Below are positions 8,153 to 53,904 of a DNA stretch of 64,000 nucleotides, in pieces. A model generated the notes under the pieces. It was not told where the DNA came from and ran no database searches. It saw only the letters and a program-made list of their open reading frames with translations. Position 1 is the stretch's first letter. Each line of letters starts with the position of its first letter. Source of the stretch: Magnetococcales bacterium (GTDB lineage: Bacteria > Pseudomonadota > Magnetococcia > Magnetococcales > JADFYX01); NCBI GenBank assembly GCA_002753565.1, contig PEAM01000001.1, forward strand, positions 62,001 through 126,000. Direction: 5' to 3'. The position numbers were made by a program, and so were the translations under genes.

Positions 8153-9013
8153 ATGAAGATTCCCCTCCCGGTGGCGTTAAAACGCCGTATCAAGGGTCAC
8201 CTTAAAAGGTGGCGAATGGCCTGGATTCGCCATCGGTATGGCTTTGGTCCGGAGCAGTTTTCTCAGGCATTGCAACAGTTGGGTTTGCAGGGTGGGGAGA
8301 CGGTGTTGGTCCATTCGGATATGGACTGTTTCGAACCCTTTTCTGGTCGACCCACCGAGATTATTACCCAGTTGGAGGAGCTGTTGGGTCCATCCGGTAC
8401 GTTGGTCATGCCCACCATTCCCTTTAGTGGTTCGGCCTTGGCGTGGGTTGAGGAGGGGGGGGGGTTTGATAACAGGCTCACCCCCTCTCGAACCGGGCTG
8501 TTGACGGAGTTTTTTCGCCGCTCATCCGGTGTAATCCGCAGCCAACACCCTACCCATCCGGTCGCTGCCAAAGGGTTGAGGGCGGCTGACCTGTGTGCCG
8601 ACCACCATCTTGCCCAAACCCCCTGCGGAAAGGGTTCTCCCTATCATCGCCTGTTGGCGGTAGATGGGTGGACCTTGCTGCTGGGATCGGGTATGGAGAG
8701 CATGACTTTTTATCATGCAGTAGAGGAGGTTATAGAGGATAAGATGCCTTTTTCTCCTTTTACAACAGCCTATTATACCATCGAATCTCGCACCCAAACC
8801 GGCGAGATGGTCCAGACCCGCACCCGCCTGTTCGACCCGGACCTCTCCCGTCGTCGCCGTATCAGCCGCCTGGTCTCTCAGCTTCAGTCAAAGCCAGGCC
8901 GGTGGCGGGAGGTTGACCTGGGCAAGATGACAATTATATTATTGAAAGCCAGTGAGGTGCTGGCCGCAGCAGAGGAGATGGCGTTGAAAGGGGCGTTTTG
9001 TTATGAAGAGTGA
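8153..9013 (+). CDS. AAC(3)-family N-acetyltransferase
   Basis: A 286-aa protein of the aminoglycoside 3-N-acetyltransferase family, which transfers acetyl from acetyl-CoA to amino groups of sugars. Visible family landmarks are VLVHSDM, the LVMPTIPF strand, IRSQHPTHPVAAKG with the conserved His, and LLLGSGMESMTFYHAVEE. Members next to glycosyltransferases and FkbH genes usually act on surface sugars and not on antibiotics; that is my inference here. The gene contains a run of ten G at 8455-8464 encoding Glu-Gly-Gly-Gly, a possible slippage site. It overlaps the next gene by 11 bases. Confidence 0.8.
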   Translation: MKIPLPVALKRRIKGHLKRWRMAWIRHRYGFGPEQFSQALQQLGLQGGETVLVHSDMDCFEPFSGRPTEIITQLEELLGPSGTLVMPTIPFSGSALAWVEEGGGFDNRLTPSRTGLLTEFFRRSSGVIRSQHPTHPVAAKGLRAADLCADHHLAQTPCGKGSPYHRLLAVDGWTLLLGSGMESMTFYHAVEEVIEDKMPFSPFTTAYYTIESRTQTGEMVQTRTRLFDPDLSRRRRISRLVSQLQSKPGRWREVDLGKMTIILLKASEVLAAAEEMALKGAFCYEE

Positions 9014-10880
9014 GCTTCGGGATCGGTTGATCCAACAGCTTGAAGAGGAGATGCTCTATCCGGCCATGCAGAGTGCGCGCGAGATTGTCGCCCAGGAGAG
9101 CGGTATAGGTCGGTGGCGATTTTTAAAAAAATGTGTGGCCAATCTGCCGGAAGGGGCCAAAGGGCTGAAGCCGGTACGTGTTGCCCTGCTGGCCTCCTTT
9201 TCCATTGAATTTATCCAGGATTCCCTGCTGGCTTTGGGGCTGGTGCATGGCCTGCAGATCAAACTTTATCCATCCGGTTTTGCCCAGTACCATCAAGAGA
9301 TAGTCGACCCCAACAGTCAACTCTATGCCTTCAAGCCGGATCTGGTTGTGCTGGCCTTGGAGGGGGAGCGGCTGGCTCCGGCCCTGTATGAAGATTTTTT
9401 AACTAACGCCACAAACCCGGCACAGACCCAGGCACAAGATCGACTGGTCAAAGAGGTGATGGGGCTGGTTTCGACTTTCCGCAGTCGGTGGGACGGTACG
9501 CTGCTGATCCATAACATGGATGACCCACAACAGGCCGCACTGGGTCTTTTGGACGGTCACCTGGATGGGGCTGGGCAGCGGTCGGGGGTGGCGGCGGTCA
9601 ATAGGCGGTTGCTGGAAGAGATCAAACAACTAAGCGGGGTTTTTCTCCTCGATTATGCCGCCCTGGTAGGCCGTTTTGGGCAGGAAAACTGGTATGACCG
9701 GCGGATGGCCCTCTATGCCCAGGCACCCATCTCCCAGGGGTTGATCCACCACCTGGCTGGGGAGTATCTGAAGGTGGTTCGTGGGGTTAAGGGGCTGGCT
9801 AAAAAATGTCTGGTCTTGGATCTGGATAACACCCTCTGGGGCGGGGTGCTGGGGGAGGAGGGGGTTGAAGGGGTCGCCTTGGGCGCCAACTATCCCGGCA
9901 GCGCTTACAGGGCTTTTCAGCGAGCGGTGTTAACGCTGTATAATCGGGGTGTTATTCTGGCTATTGCCAGCAAAAACAATGTGGATGATGTGGATGAACT
10001 GTTTGCCCAGAACCGATTCATGGTTTTGAAAAAAGAGCAGTTTACCCTCCGAGAGATCCACTGGCAGCCCAAGCCGCTCTCTCTTGAAAAAATTGCCAAG
10101 ACGCTGAATATCGGTTTGGAACATCTGGTTTTTATTGATGATAATCCGGTAGAGTGTGAGGCGGTGTGTGTCTCTCTGCCAGAGGTGACCGTGCTACCCT
10201 TTCCAGCCAACCGACCAGAAGAGGCGGTTGATCTGCTCTTTGCGGAGGGGCTGTTTGATAGCCTCTCTTTTTCCGAGGAAGATCGCAACCGCAGCCAGCT
10301 CTATCAGCAGCGGGCAGAGGCTGAACAGTTGCGGGGGTCCAGTGGATCTCTGGAGGATTTTTATCGCAGCCTGGAGATGGTGGTGACCATTGCAGCGGTA
10401 CAGCCTCAGACCCTGGCCCGCACCGCACAGCTGACCCAAAAAACCAACCAGTTCAACCTGACCACCTACCGTTATGGCGAGTCGGAGGTGGCGGAACGTA
10501 TGGCCGATCCAAGCTGGATTCTGCTTACCCTACAGGTTACAGACCGTTTTGGTGATAATGGTATTGTCGGGGTGGTGATGGCTCAGCAGGTTGATAAGGC
10601 ATTGCATCTGGACACTTTTTTACTAAGCTGCCGAGTGATTGGTCGCACCGTAGAGACCGCCCTGCTGGCGGAGTTGTGCCGACTTGCCGTGGCACGTGGT
10701 GTGACCTGTTTGATCGGTCAGGTTATTCCCACCCCCAAAAACCTGCCGGCCCGAGAACTCTACCAGCAGCATGGTTTTACCTTGGTCGATGAAGAGAAGC
10801 AGCTTTGGAAATTGACCCTATCCGACCATCAGGTTAAGCCTCTTCCTTGGTTGACGGTGGTGACGGAGGGCGTAGGATGA
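9003..10880 (+). CDS. FkbH-like HAD-type protein with C-terminal GNAT-like domain
   Basis: A 625-aa protein of the FkbH family. Known members load a three-carbon unit derived from 1,3-bisphosphoglycerate onto an acyl carrier protein, removing phosphate. The HAD core shows motif I DLDNTLWGG near residue 273, IASKNN, the motif III lysine in WQPKPLSL and FIDDNP near 379. The N-terminal ~260 aa resemble the SGNH-like module of this family and the C-terminal ~170 aa a GNAT-like acyltransferase (RTAQLTQKTNQFNLTT is typical). The acyl carrier protein gene at 11285 is the obvious partner. Confidence 0.88.
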   Translation: MKSELRDRLIQQLEEEMLYPAMQSAREIVAQESGIGRWRFLKKCVANLPEGAKGLKPVRVALLASFSIEFIQDSLLALGLVHGLQIKLYPSGFAQYHQEIVDPNSQLYAFKPDLVVLALEGERLAPALYEDFLTNATNPAQTQAQDRLVKEVMGLVSTFRSRWDGTLLIHNMDDPQQAALGLLDGHLDGAGQRSGVAAVNRRLLEEIKQLSGVFLLDYAALVGRFGQENWYDRRMALYAQAPISQGLIHHLAGEYLKVVRGVKGLAKKCLVLDLDNTLWGGVLGEEGVEGVALGANYPGSAYRAFQRAVLTLYNRGVILAIASKNNVDDVDELFAQNRFMVLKKEQFTLREIHWQPKPLSLEKIAKTLNIGLEHLVFIDDNPVECEAVCVSLPEVTVLPFPANRPEEAVDLLFAEGLFDSLSFSEEDRNRSQLYQQRAEAEQLRGSSGSLEDFYRSLEMVVTIAAVQPQTLARTAQLTQKTNQFNLTTYRYGESEVAERMADPSWILLTLQVTDRFGDNGIVGVVMAQQVDKALHLDTFLLSCRVIGRTVETALLAELCRLAVARGVTCLIGQVIPTPKNLPARELYQQHGFTLVDEEKQLWKLTLSDHQVKPLPWLTVVTEGVG

Positions 10881-10930
10881 TGGATAGGAATGAGACGTCC
10901 CAATCTTTAGGTGAAAGTCTATCGCAACTA

Positions 10931-11142
10931 TAGATATTTCTAGCCAAATTTGTACAAAACTATTAAGGATGGGTCTGGGAAGGCATGAATGCCTTCCCAG
11001 CGGGTTTGGGCAGCGCCCAAGGTCCTAGGCCTTTGACTTTGTTTTTTTTATTTTTAAAAGCGTGGGGATTTGGGGGCCTGCAAGGCCTCCCAAGGTGTTG
11101 ACTTTGCCTTAAACCGTTGTCCAAATCTGGTTTTAATTGACT
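10931..11142 (+). repeat. Dispersed structured repeat, copy A
   Basis: About 210 bases that recur at 37067-37283 (same orientation) and 53066-53276 (inverted). It contains a 12-bp perfect inverted repeat with a two-base loop at 10974-10999, a second stem TTGGGC/GCCCAA and a third one around TTGGGGGCC/GGCCTCCCAA, then a conserved tail ACTTTGCCTTAAACCGTTGT. A TTTGTACAAA palindrome lies near the head. It begins 50 bases after the fkbH-like stop, in the same orientation as that gene. It is not coding: reading frames through it are on the opposite strand or unconserved. Confidence 0.85.
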
Positions 11143-11150
11143 AAACTCTG

Positions 11151-11205
11151 TATCGATATTCCAAAGCAAATGGGTGCAAAACAGTTGCGGGTGGGTCTGG
11201 GCAGT
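11151..11205 (+). repeat. Partial second head of the dispersed repeat
   Basis: Right after copy A, the sequence ATCGATATTCCAAAGC leading to GTTGCGGGTGGGTCTGGG matches the head region of the repeat family (compare 37067-37118 and the right end of copy C) and then stops before the first stem. It looks like a truncated tandem copy, or what is left of an earlier insertion. Confidence 0.55.
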
Positions 11206-11284
11206 AGCTAAGATTTCAAGCCGTTGATTACCGATGTCCAATTTGGTTTTAACCGACAGTCGTGTGGTGAAGAGAGGTGAGAGC

Positions 11285-11509
11285 GTGGAAGAGACGATCA
11301 AGCAGCTGATGGCAGATATCTTGGATCTGGACCCAAAAGCCATTGACCATACTACCCGAGCCGATGGGGTGGATGGTTGGGACTCCTTTAACCATCTTAA
11401 TCTTTGTCTGGCTATTGAGCAGGCGTTGGGTGTTCAGTTGGAGGTGCAGGAGATGGAGACGATGCTCTCGTTTCCTGCCATCATGGCGGTTGTTCGATCG
11501 AAGGAATAA
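11285..11509 (+). CDS. Stand-alone acyl carrier protein
   Basis: A 74-aa acidic four-helix acyl carrier protein. The phosphopantetheine attachment serine is in GWDSFNHLNL, followed by helix II/III as expected. GTG 11285 is chosen because an AGAGGTGAG lies just upstream and it gives a normal ACP length; an in-frame ATG at 11234 would add 17 residues without family support. FkbH-like enzymes need such a carrier, and the only gene between them is none: the ~400-base gap holds the repeat. So this is probably the carrier for the three-carbon unit made by the fkbH-like product. Confidence 0.8.
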   Translation: MEETIKQLMADILDLDPKAIDHTTRADGVDGWDSFNHLNLCLAIEQALGVQLEVQEMETMLSFPAIMAVVRSKE

Positions 11510-36196: not shown

Positions 36197-36958
36197 GTGT
36201 ATACAACCATAACCAATTTGGAAACCTATCTTCATGACCTTCTGCATGTCGCACATTTTTCCGATTATTGCCCCAATGGTATTCAGGTTCGGGGACGGAA
36301 ACGGATAGAACGGGTGATGACCGGTGTCTCTGCTTGTCAAGATCTGATCCGTTTTGCCATCTCCTGGCAGGCCGATCTGCTCCTGGTGCATCACGGCATC
36401 TTGTGGGATAAAGATTCTCGTGTTGTAACAGGAAGCTACAAAGATAGGTTGCAGTTGTTGTTAAAGAACGATCTTAACCTGATGGCCTTCCATCTGCCAC
36501 TGGATGCCCATCCGGTTTTGGGGAACAATGCTCAGATTCTTCAACAATTGGACCTGACCCAAACAGGGCCGTTTGGGCGATATCGGGGTGGAACACTCTC
36601 CTTCATGGGTCAATGCCAGCAGCCTCTCTCATTAACCAATTTTTCCAAGAAGGTGAAGCAAAGGTTTGGCGGATCACCGTTGGTTCTTCCCTTTGGCCCT
36701 AAAAAAATCAAGCGGGTCGCCGTCTGCAGTGGTGGCGCTCCGGAGTTGGTTCGGGAGGCAAAAGAGCGGGGTGCAGATCTGTTCCTGACCGGTGAGGCCA
36801 GCGAATTTGTCTATCACTTTGCCAAAGAGGAGAAGATCAGCTTGATTGCCGCCGGTCACCATCGAACCGAAAAGGGGGGCGTTAAAGTCTTGGGAGACCA
36901 CCTGGCCGAAGTGTTTGGACTGGAACATCGATTTAAAAATGTACCCAATCCCATATGA
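36197..36958 (+). CDS. Nif3-like dinuclear metal-centre protein (YbgI family)
   Basis: A 253-aa protein of the NIF3/YbgI family, two-metal proteins of unsettled function (one member is annotated as GTP cyclohydrolase I type 2). Metal-ligand motifs VHHGILW, HLPLDAH and the C-terminal AGHHRTE are present. The start is GTG 36197, supported by a GAGGA six bases before. It is divergent from the GAF protein gene; a copy of the dispersed repeat begins 108 bases after its stop. Confidence 0.88.
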   Translation: MYTTITNLETYLHDLLHVAHFSDYCPNGIQVRGRKRIERVMTGVSACQDLIRFAISWQADLLLVHHGILWDKDSRVVTGSYKDRLQLLLKNDLNLMAFHLPLDAHPVLGNNAQILQQLDLTQTGPFGRYRGGTLSFMGQCQQPLSLTNFSKKVKQRFGGSPLVLPFGPKKIKRVAVCSGGAPELVREAKERGADLFLTGEASEFVYHFAKEEKISLIAAGHHRTEKGGVKVLGDHLAEVFGLEHRFKNVPNPI

Positions 36959-37066: not shown

Positions 37067-37283
37067 TATAGAGATTCCAAACAAAATTTGTACAAAACGA
37101 TTGCGGATGGGTCTGGGAAGGCATGAATGCCTTCCCAGCGGGTTTGGGTAACGCCTAAGGCTATAAGTATTTGACTTTGCTTTCTTTTTTAATTTTAAAA
37201 GCGTGGGAGTTTGGGGGCCTGCAAGGCCTCCCAAGGTGTTGACTTTGCCTTAAACCGTTGTCAAAATCTGGTTTCAATTAACT
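37067..37283 (+). repeat. Dispersed structured repeat, copy B
   Basis: Closely matches copy A at 10931-11142: TTTGTACAAAA at the head, the same GGAAGGCAT/ATGCCTTCC stem, a TTTGGG...GCCTAA stem kept by wobble pairs, GGGGGCCTGCAAGGCCTCCC, and the GCCTTAAACCGTTGT tail. It lies downstream of, and in the same orientation as, the Nif3-like gene. Confidence 0.85.
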
Positions 37284-37311
37284 ATATAAACCAAGTGATT
37301 CAGACGCACTT

Positions 37312-38183: not shown

Positions 38184-38807
38184 TTAAAACGGCCAAATCG
38201 ACCCACTCTCTTCAAGTCGATCCCGACATTTTTGTAGCTGGGTATAATAACGAGAAGCGTTGCGTTTGACCTTTTTGGCCACCTGCATCAGCCACTTTTT
38301 TTTCAGATAGGTTTTCTGTCTGTAGCCGTTATGCCCTTCATGGTAGGCCAGATATTGTGCCTCGGCATCCCATCGGGAGATGCCCAGTCGGGTGAAGCTG
38401 ATATCGGTATACCAGCCGATAAAGTCGACAGCATCATCAAAGTTGTCCCGATCGGCACCGCTGTTACCGGTTTTTTCCTTGTACCACTTCCAGGTGCCGT
38501 CCAGTACCTGGGCATAGCCGAAGGCCGTAGAGCTACGTGGGCCGGGAATAAACCAAAAGAGTCTTTTTCTGGGTGGTTTGGCGTTATGGGTGAATTTGGA
38601 CTCCTGATGGATGATGGCAAGTTGGACGTGTATGGGCAGTTTCCACTTTTTCTCAACTTGGCGCATACTGTCATACCAGCTATTTTCATCGGCAAAGATG
38701 GAGCAGGCGTTGTCGATATTGCTGGGGCGTGATGCACAGCCACCTATCAGTAAAAGTAGTATCCCCCAAACTACCCACCGGTTTCTTATTGTTCCAACTC
38801 GGCCCAT
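38184..38807 (-). CDS. Lytic transglycosylase-like lipoprotein
   Basis: A 207-aa SLT-domain protein that should cleave peptidoglycan with anhydromuramic-acid formation. A lipobox (LLLLIGGC) near residue 24 indicates an outer-membrane lipoprotein. The catalytic Glu is in IIHQESKF, and GYAQVLDGTW plus AYHEGHNGY complete the active-site groove. ATG 38807 is chosen; an in-frame start at 38873 would put 22 more residues before the signal peptide. Confidence 0.82.
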   Translation of the reverse strand: MGRVGTIRNRWVVWGILLLLIGGCASRPSNIDNACSIFADENSWYDSMRQVEKKWKLPIHVQLAIIHQESKFTHNAKPPRKRLFWFIPGPRSSTAFGYAQVLDGTWKWYKEKTGNSGADRDNFDDAVDFIGWYTDISFTRLGISRWDAEAQYLAYHEGHNGYRQKTYLKKKWLMQVAKKVKRNASRYYTQLQKCRDRLEESGSIWPF

Positions 38808-38892
38808 CCCAACCCCCAAAATCTTACTATCGTTATTCCTTTTAATGATAATGATAACATGGTTGAGCAGCAAAAACTCGGGATCAAAAAAA

Positions 38893-52053: not shown

Positions 52054-52281
52054 ATGGATAGCTCTGCCGCTGCTCTTATCGGTATGGGACTGGCCGCTGC
52101 CGGTTTTGCCGGTTCCGGTATAGGTCTTGGAACATTGTTCGGCAAAGCCATTGAGGCTATTGCCCGTCAGCCGGGTGCTGAATCTCAGGTTTCCAAATAC
52201 ATCTGGATTGGTATGGCCTTCGTGGAAGCGGTTGCGCTGTATGGTCTGGTTGTGGTCTTCATCATCATGGGTAAAGGGTAA
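52054..52281 (+). CDS. atpE: ATP synthase F0 subunit c
   Basis: A 75-aa two-helix proteolipid. The polar loop ARQPGAE follows helix 1 and the proton-binding Glu is in GMAFVEAVALYG in helix 2. The Na-type ligand pattern is absent, so a proton ring is inferred. It sits five bases before the subunit b-type gene; the gap before it is 70 bases. Confidence 0.95.
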   Translation: MDSSAAALIGMGLAAAGFAGSGIGLGTLFGKAIEAIARQPGAESQVSKYIWIGMAFVEAVALYGLVVVFIIMGKG

Positions 52282-52285
52282 GGCG

Positions 52286-52849
52286 ATGATATCCGTTGCA
52301 CACGCAGCGGCTGAGGAGCATGCCAAATCGGCAGGTATGCCCCAGTTCGAGCCCTCAATGTTTGAGCATCAGATCGTCTGGTCGGTTATTTCGTTTCTGA
52401 TCCTTCTTCATCTGCTGAAAAAACACGTTCTTCCAGCCATCAACGACCTCCTGGATGCCCGTGCCAAAAAGATTGAAGAGGATCTCGATAGTGCGAAGTT
52501 AGCTCGCAAACAGGCTGAAAAATCTCAGACCGATCTGAATAATCAACTGGCTTCCGCACGCCAAATGGCTTCAGAAACCATGGATCAGGCACGTGTCGAT
52601 GCAGCTCGCCATAGAGAACAAGCTGTGGAGGAGTTGAATGCGGAACTAGCCAAAAAGAAAAATGCTGCTCTACTTGAAATCGAAGCAGCCAAGAAGAAGG
52701 CCCTTGCTGAAGTGCAGGCGACTGTGGTTGATCTAACCATGTTGGCTACAGAAAAGCTGATTGCCAAAAGTGTCACCAAAAGTTCGGCCAGTTCCATGGT
52801 CGAGGAGGCCTTGAAAGAGATCAAAGGGAGCGATGCCAGTTTGCATTGA
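52286..52849 (+). CDS. atpF: ATP synthase F0 subunit b (b'-like)
   Basis: A 187-aa stator subunit. One membrane helix (IVWSVISFLILLHLL) precedes a long charged coiled coil. The start MISVAHAAAEEHAKSAGMPQ resembles the b' type of alphaproteobacteria. ATG 52286 lies four bases after the atpE stop with GTAAGG just upstream; a longer in-frame start at 52127 would overlap atpE. In most alphaproteobacteria a second b gene follows, but here a terminator does. Confidence 0.92.
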   Translation: MISVAHAAAEEHAKSAGMPQFEPSMFEHQIVWSVISFLILLHLLKKHVLPAINDLLDARAKKIEEDLDSAKLARKQAEKSQTDLNNQLASARQMASETMDQARVDAARHREQAVEELNAELAKKKNAALLEIEAAKKKALAEVQATVVDLTMLATEKLIAKSVTKSSASSMVEEALKEIKGSDASLH

Positions 52850-52971
52850 GTCTCTATTCTCATAGGGTGAGAAGGGGGTGGCTGTCGGGTTTGTGACAGT
52901 GGATTCCACTCTCTCCTGATCTGTTGTGGTCTGTTGATCTTTGGATCATGAAGAGCACATTGAGAGATAAA

Positions 52972-53002
52972 AAAACCACCCTGAAGCTTGGGGTGGTTTT
53001 TT
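52972..53002 (+). terminator. Terminator of the F0 operon
   Basis: AAAACCACCC pairs with GGGTGGTTTT around a short loop and is followed by T; it ends the atpI-B-E-F group about 120 bases after the atpF stop. A longer A run before the stem makes it work on the minus strand too. Confidence 0.9.
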
Positions 53003-53065
53003 GTTGTGCGGGGTATGTGTGGGATTATTGTGTTGGGTTCGAGTGTTTGATTGAAAAGGGGTTAT

Positions 53066-53276
53066 AGACAGTTAAAACCAGATTTGGACAACGGTTTAAG
53101 GCAAAGTCAACACCTTGGGAGTCCTTTGCAGGCCTCCAAACCCCCACACTTATCAACTAAAAAAAGCAAAATCAAAGGCTTGGGACCTTGGGCGCTGTTC
53201 AAACCCGCTGGGAAGGCATTTGCCTTCCCAGACCCATCCGCTGCTGTTCTGTGGCAATGTGGATTGGAATATCGAC
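53066..53276 (-). repeat. Dispersed structured repeat, copy C (inverted)
   Basis: The reverse complement matches copies A and B: CGATATTCCAAT head, GGATGGGTCTGGGAAGG, the GGAAGGCA/TGCCTTCC stem, GCCCAAGGTCCC, GGCCTGCAAAGG, and the GCCTTAAACCGTTGT tail. It is more diverged than A and B. It starts one base after the TetR-like stop codon, on the same strand as that gene. Confidence 0.85.
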
Positions 53277-53277
53277 G

Positions 53278-53904
53278 TTATTCGGTAACGGCTAGCATAA
53301 AGAGTTGCCAGGAGCTGTCGATCTCGTCTACTGGAGAATGTTTGAATCCACTCATTACAAACCGCAGTGTGGCAGCCTGGATCATGCCGACAAAAAGATT
53401 GGCAACAGCATCCAGGTCCAGTTGGGTAGAGATTTCCTGGCGCTCCTGCCCCAAAGAGAGAAGTTTTTTGACCCGTTTTTTATACTCTGAAACAACACGG
53501 ATCATCTGCTGGGTCTCCTCTTTGGAAACCACACCCTCCACAAGAAAAACCCGGCAAAGTCCCGGATGTTCGGCAAAAAAGAGTAGATGATAGTGGTAGA
53601 GTCGGTTAAGCTGTTGAAGTGGAGAGTCCTTACCCTCCTGCAATTGATAGGCAGGCTTGAGTAGATGCTCTTCGACATAATCTGTCAACGCCTTGAAAAT
53701 GGCAGATTTACCAGAAAAATGACGATATAAGGCCGCTTCCGACAAACCTACTTCCGCTGCCAAGGCTGCTGTGGTAACTTTATCATTGCCTTTCTCCAGA
53801 AGAGTCATAACGGCTTGGAGAATTTCAACTTTTCTTCCGGGCCGACGCCTGCGATCGGTTTTATTTGCTTTGGTTTTTGGCGGCGCTTCTTGTGATACAA
53901 TCAT
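53278..53904 (-). CDS. TetR-family regulator, SlmA-like
   Basis: A 208-aa TetR-type protein. The helix-turn-helix is TTAALAAEVGLSEAALYRHF followed by SGKSAIFKALTDYVEEHL, the pattern of SlmA, a nucleoid-occlusion regulator of FtsZ. A basic N-terminus (TDRRRRPGRK) precedes it. Whether it acts in division or as a drug-efflux repressor is not decided; SlmA is the nearest named pattern. It is divergent from the Bax-inhibitor gene. Confidence 0.8.
   Translation of the reverse strand: MIVSQEAPPKTKANKTDRRRRPGRKVEILQAVMTLLEKGNDKVTTAALAAEVGLSEAALYRHFSGKSAIFKALTDYVEEHLLKPAYQLQEGKDSPLQQLNRLYHYHLLFFAEHPGLCRVFLVEGVVSKEETQQMIRVVSEYKKRVKKLLSLGQERQEISTQLDLDAVANLFVGMIQAATLRFVMSGFKHSPVDEIDSSWQLFMLAVTE

Follow-up and report, generated by a model that had tools for sequence, protein, structure and literature searches.

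The repeat and its surroundings

The window, the whole stretch of 64,000 nucleotides analysed here (G000:C76:62001-126000), belongs to the 3.87 Mb genome of a Magnetococcales species (G000), assembled in 92 contigs. It contains three copies of a structured repeat and, directly 3' of the first, a fourth, degenerate unit. The gene caller used was home-made and missed the gene at 52127-52849; neighbouring genes in the window were checked with Pfam and NCBIfam. The features are as follows.

9003-10880 (+), FkbH-like gene, co-directional with copy 1
10929-11145 (+), repeat copy 1, full length (nhmmer 241 bits, model 2-216; alignment A1)
10929-10957 (+), left terminal inverted repeat of copy 1, TATAGATATTTCTAGCCAAATTTGTACAA (sequence; consensus of 82 left ends)
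10976-11001 (+), hairpin A of copy 1, an 11-bp perfect stem, CTGGGAAGGCA(TGAA)TGCCTTCCCAG (sequence, fold, pair counts)
11006-11020 (+), hairpin B of copy 1, TTGGGC(AGC)GCCCAA (sequence, fold, pair counts)
11071-11094 (+), hairpin C of copy 1, TTGGGGGCCT(GCA)AGGCCTCCCAA, with one bulged T (sequence, fold, pair counts)
11117-11145 (+), right terminal inverted repeat of copy 1 (sequence; consensus of 57 right ends)
~11150-11260 (+), degenerate, internally deleted second unit of the repeat (sequence)
11234-11509 (+), acyl-carrier-protein-like (ACP-like) gene, co-directional with copy 1
36197-36958 (+), DUF34/NIF3 gene, convergent with the SLT gene beyond copy 2
37067-37286 (+), repeat copy 2, full length (nhmmer 238 bits, model 2-217)
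38184-38873 (-), SLT gene
52127-52849 (+), ATP-synthase-B-like gene, convergent with the TetR-like gene beyond copy 3
52968-53003 (no strand assigned), intrinsic terminator distinct from copy 3, ACCACCC..GGGTGGT, T-runs on both strands (sequence, terminator scan)
53063-53277 (-), repeat copy 3, with a degenerate left end, CGTCGATATTCC (nhmmer 206 bits, model 4-217)
53278-53904 (-), TetR-like gene

A preliminary description of this DNA had reported three copies with these hairpins and an exact 20-base tail, and all of these are present (chance matches, 0 in 100 shuffles). It had the copies in the right places, but their ends are corrected to those listed above, and it overlooked both the terminal inverted repeats and the unit at ~11150-11260. 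The latter is built of a left terminal inverted repeat, GGGTCTGGGCAG and a right terminal inverted repeat, with a partial nhmmer match at C76:73152-73204. No coding was found in the ~217 bp element, as had been stated. A second stem preserved by wobble pairing had also been proposed; this holds in copy 2 but fails in copy 3, where two A-C mispairs occur (TTGAAC/GCCCAA). The terminator at 52968-53003 sits outside copy 3 and is no part of the repeat. Copy 1 and its degenerate neighbour lie between the FkbH-like and ACP-like genes (window 9003-11509), which may plausibly belong to one pathway.

An IS630-type family with terminal inverted repeats

Pattern and HMM searches of G000 recovered the element, full or partial, at 99 merged places or 101 clusters, and truncated, tandem and nested copies were common. 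The consensus reads TATAGAGATTTCAAACCAAATTTGTACAAAACGATTGC, hairpin A, GCGGG, hairpin B, an AT-rich spacer, hairpin C and GTGTTGACTTTGCC...CCAAATTTGGTTTTAACTGACTATA. Its terminal inverted repeats (TIRs) are imperfect, 24 of 29 positions matching, and both ends carry TA. Base counts over 82 left and 57 right ends showed that conservation begins sharply at TATAG and stops at CTATA, with random flanks. In the predicted consensus fold the two ends pair and the hairpins are stacked between them; the fold of copy 1 was 3.3 sd more stable than dinucleotide shuffles. Hairpin modules have grown into tandem arrays at three loci (L002 1712-1912, L121 938-1139 and L118), and deletions between hairpins A and B fall at their common GGGTYTGGG motif (e.g., L095 and L041). 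The repeat had no match in an Rfam covariance-model search, an exact 22-mer of its tail matched nothing in the genome-contig and viral-contig collections, and a description of this Magnetococcales repeat was not found in literature searches.

Relatives of G000 carry IS630-family transposase genes (NF033545, E = 8e-38 and 5e-29), and several of these are flanked by ends of the same type. In genome G002, of the same genus, an IS630 transposase gene has an inward-facing terminus TATAGCAGTTCCAAACCAAAATCTTACA (L232), while at L234 inward-facing termini TATAGCCATCTCAAATCAAAGTTAGACA and TATCATCACCGCAAACCATAGTTGGACA are found at both ends of an IS630 gene, ~885 bp apart. The end signature also occurs, facing inward, at the IS630 transposase genes of L257 and L248. 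Over 30 IS630-like loci, 17 matches to termini of this type were counted, against a shuffle mean of 0.2.

Evidence for insertion came from an empty-site comparison at ten loci, which was informative at one, gene order being unconserved at the others. The copy at C79:133673 is absent from the same gene pair in the sister species G001 and G004; in G000 it lies directly behind a conserved intrinsic terminator, and both sister species keep the genes and the terminator without the element. TA occurs at both ends of most copies, and the pre-insertion stretch at the empty site is too diverged for a single TA to be read. The claim of a MITE-like mobile element was therefore borne out by ~100 copies, TIRs with TA, the IS630 TIR signature and a site empty in two sister species.

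Because of its ends, its copy number, the IS630-matched termini and the empty site, we regard the repeat as a non-autonomous IS630-type MITE, probably moved in trans by an IS630 transposase and with a 3' bias that would come from tolerance of insertions; we put the probability of this reading at about 0.88. An IS630 transposase acting in trans would recognize the TATAG..AAACCAAA..GACA terminal inverted repeats and insert the element at TA dinucleotides, and insertions would be kept mainly behind genes and in convergent gaps, where promoters and coding sequence are left undisturbed. Searches of G000 recovered neither an IS630 (DDE_3) gene nor an autonomous copy bounded by these TIRs, so the mobilizer may be absent there or unassembled; an assembly in 92 contigs could miss it. 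On C79, the stretches between head-to-head copies contain ordinary genes and no transposase, and the idea that they form larger elements was rejected.

Other Magnetococcales have TIR-bounded families of their own: TATAGTAAATTCAAACC...AAAATCACTATA in G004, of the same genus, and TATAGACATACCAAACCAAAATC...GATTTTGGTTTGGATTGACTATA in G015, of another family. In G015 a second family of 242 bp shares the TIR signature (TATAGCAACTCCAATCCAGAATTGGACA) and has an unrelated interior; its copies at L224-L227 (1501-1742) are 82-97% identical. Extra TIR-like matches in G015 proved to be this second family, and an autonomous copy there was rejected. The interior ATTCCCGCGAATGCGGGAATCC hairpin of the second family resembles dRS3-type repeats.

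The family is new and its kind, an IS630-type MITE, is ordinary. ISY100 is a Tc1/mariner/IS630 element with a strong TA preference (PMC2170065, PMC6400869). Like IS630/Tc1-mariner MITEs, the Magnetococcales element is short and non-coding, with imperfect TIRs, TA ends, many copies and IS630-matching termini in relatives; unlike them, it lacks a detected transposase copy in its own genome (G000), and its three G-rich hairpin modules are conserved above the TIRs. RUP and BOX of pneumococcus, Correia elements and the QMITEs of Coxiella are small interspersed intergenic repeats whose transcripts form stable stem-loops (PMC10969869), and their likeness to this element is one of build only. For the Magnetococcales, the result is an IS630-type MITE family with ~100 copies in one genome, a candidate mobilizer in a genome of the same genus, and one empty site.

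REP sequences are hairpin repeats that favor 3' ends, and a REP-like repeat mobilized by a RAYT/Y1 (HUH) transposase recognizing GGGT-footed hairpins would account for the repeated modules, each with a GGGT foot beside its hairpin, in an order where many genomes have Y1 transposase genes. However, a Y1_Tnp gene was not found in G000, and 30 Y1 loci of relatives were without a real module, one weak look-alike (L191) aside, in a search run with positive controls. The element shares hairpins and 3' bias with REP/RAYT systems and differs in its TIR/TA frame and in having no RAYT association; REPs are not known to have terminal inverted repeats with TA. With no Y1 gene in G000 and no real module at the 30 Y1 loci, a RAYT/REP origin was rejected as very improbable.

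Position relative to genes and 3'-end function

In 80 gaps both neighbouring genes were called: 53 were convergent and 2 divergent, and in co-directional gaps the element was on the same strand as the genes in 19 and on the opposite strand in 6, or 7 with C76:4483, which the caller had first placed inside a gene. Convergent and divergent gaps are about equally numerous in a genome, so a ratio of 53:2 is strongly skewed (p = 9e-14), and the copies avoid promoters. The concentration at 3' ends of unrelated genes noted in the preliminary description is thus real. Its further statement that the repeat always takes the gene's orientation is mostly geometry: each copy does follow a stop codon, but copies 2 and 3 lie in convergent gaps, where either orientation would do so. 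Only co-directional gaps test orientation for this reason, and there a weak bias towards the gene strand remains (19:7, p ~0.03). Insertion tolerance is the simplest reading of the 3' preference, and a strong pattern of 3'-end position and orientation can arise from tolerance, not function.

The repeat had also been read as a terminator or 3'-UTR element used by genes. If it were a functional 3'-end device, its hairpins would stop transcription or shield the 3' ends of mRNAs, and selection would keep copies behind genes; the strong 3' bias and the weak same-strand bias in co-directional gaps would fit this, as would stems that vary less than spacers (see below) and a weak terminator-like stem, CAAGGTC..GACTTTG-CT8 before the T-tract, found on the + strand of 19/61 copies and on the - strand of 0/61. 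Yet hairpins A, B and C are followed by no U-run, which an intrinsic terminator would have, and terminator scans of copies 2 and 3 found none. The terminator at C79:133673 is kept by two sister species that lack the element, and convergent gaps with the element are no different from those without it in how often they have a terminator of their own (18/56 element-bearing, counting terminators outside the element, vs 3/13 element-free, p = 0.74). Copy 1, moreover, stands between co-directional FkbH-like and ACP-like genes that plausibly cooperate, and few compensatory changes were seen in the stems. A terminator function is not supported, with no good evidence that genes use the repeat in this way, and we consider a 3'-end device of any kind unlikely. 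SPRITE, a rho-independent-terminator-like repeat of S. pneumoniae (PMC10969869), is alike by description as a small terminator-like repeat near genes; unlike SPRITE, the Magnetococcales element has no canonical terminator and is bounded by IS630-type TIRs.

Hairpin conservation, related hairpins and IS110 junctions

Among 21 copies picked by TIR only, stems varied at 3.0% and spacers at 7.3% (p = 4e-6), and the right TIR at 13%. Conservation is thus higher in the internal stems than in the TIRs, a pattern not expected of a MITE that is purely dead. Covariation, however, gives weak support within the genome to the selected RNA structure proposed in the preliminary description: the changes counted in stem A are 2 two-sided, 7 one-sided and 7 pair-breaking. 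The conservation may be due to template switching that corrects palindromes, to gene conversion or to selection. The arms of hairpin A are entirely different in G004, yet they remain complementary (GCAGGGAG..CTCCCTGC). This rewriting with pairing kept, together with the conserved multi-hairpin fold, would suit a family of independent structured RNAs, akin to small RNAs or riboswitches, that multiplied by duplication and not by transposition. That origin is nevertheless hard to credit given the missing Rfam match, the TIR/TA ends, the IS630-matched termini, the empty site and the occurrence of truncated and tandem copies.

Hairpins of this kind also occur further afield. The exact pattern CCCAGCGGGTTTGGGCNNNGCCCAA, with 22 fixed bases, was found in 28 stretches in a collection of 84,980 species, its holders being Magnetococcales, two Oscillospiraceae MAGs (at many places), one Azospirillaceae MAG and three Bacillaceae-type genomes, in whose contigs it adjoins genes that look by eye like plasmid relaxases. 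A hairpin pair GGGGTCTGGGG..CCCCAGCGGGTTTGGGCNNNGCCCAAGG, near-identical to the core of the element, is present in Bacillus badius (L057), Pullulanibacillus camelliae (L066) and Ectobacillus funiculus (L082), close upstream of genes that by eye, with no database used, are plasmid relaxase/mobilization-like. Either common descent or convergence may account for the likeness between the hairpins in Firmicutes and the MITE core. A more speculative view, which we think doubtful, sees in the hairpin core, a series of GGGTYTGGG..CCCAR modules, a portable nucleic-acid unit under selection that might protect the 3' ends of mRNAs or act as a roadblock in both directions, carried by IS630-type MITEs of different Magnetococcales families and recurring in other phyla near plasmid mobilization genes.

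Six copies in G000 are joined to a shared second repeat, some of them with remnants of the IS110 family (NF033542, E = 3e-14), a family of RNA-guided transposases. These copies lie at C71:38987-39204, C76:51382-51563, C90:19604-19782, C86:63190, C87:21327 and C3:41959 (loci L029, L095, L088, L097, L098 and L126). Intact junctions share a single position within the right TIR, AAC|TGACTATA, and this fixed junction suggests either site-specific IS110 insertion into the MITE end or a single composite that later spread.
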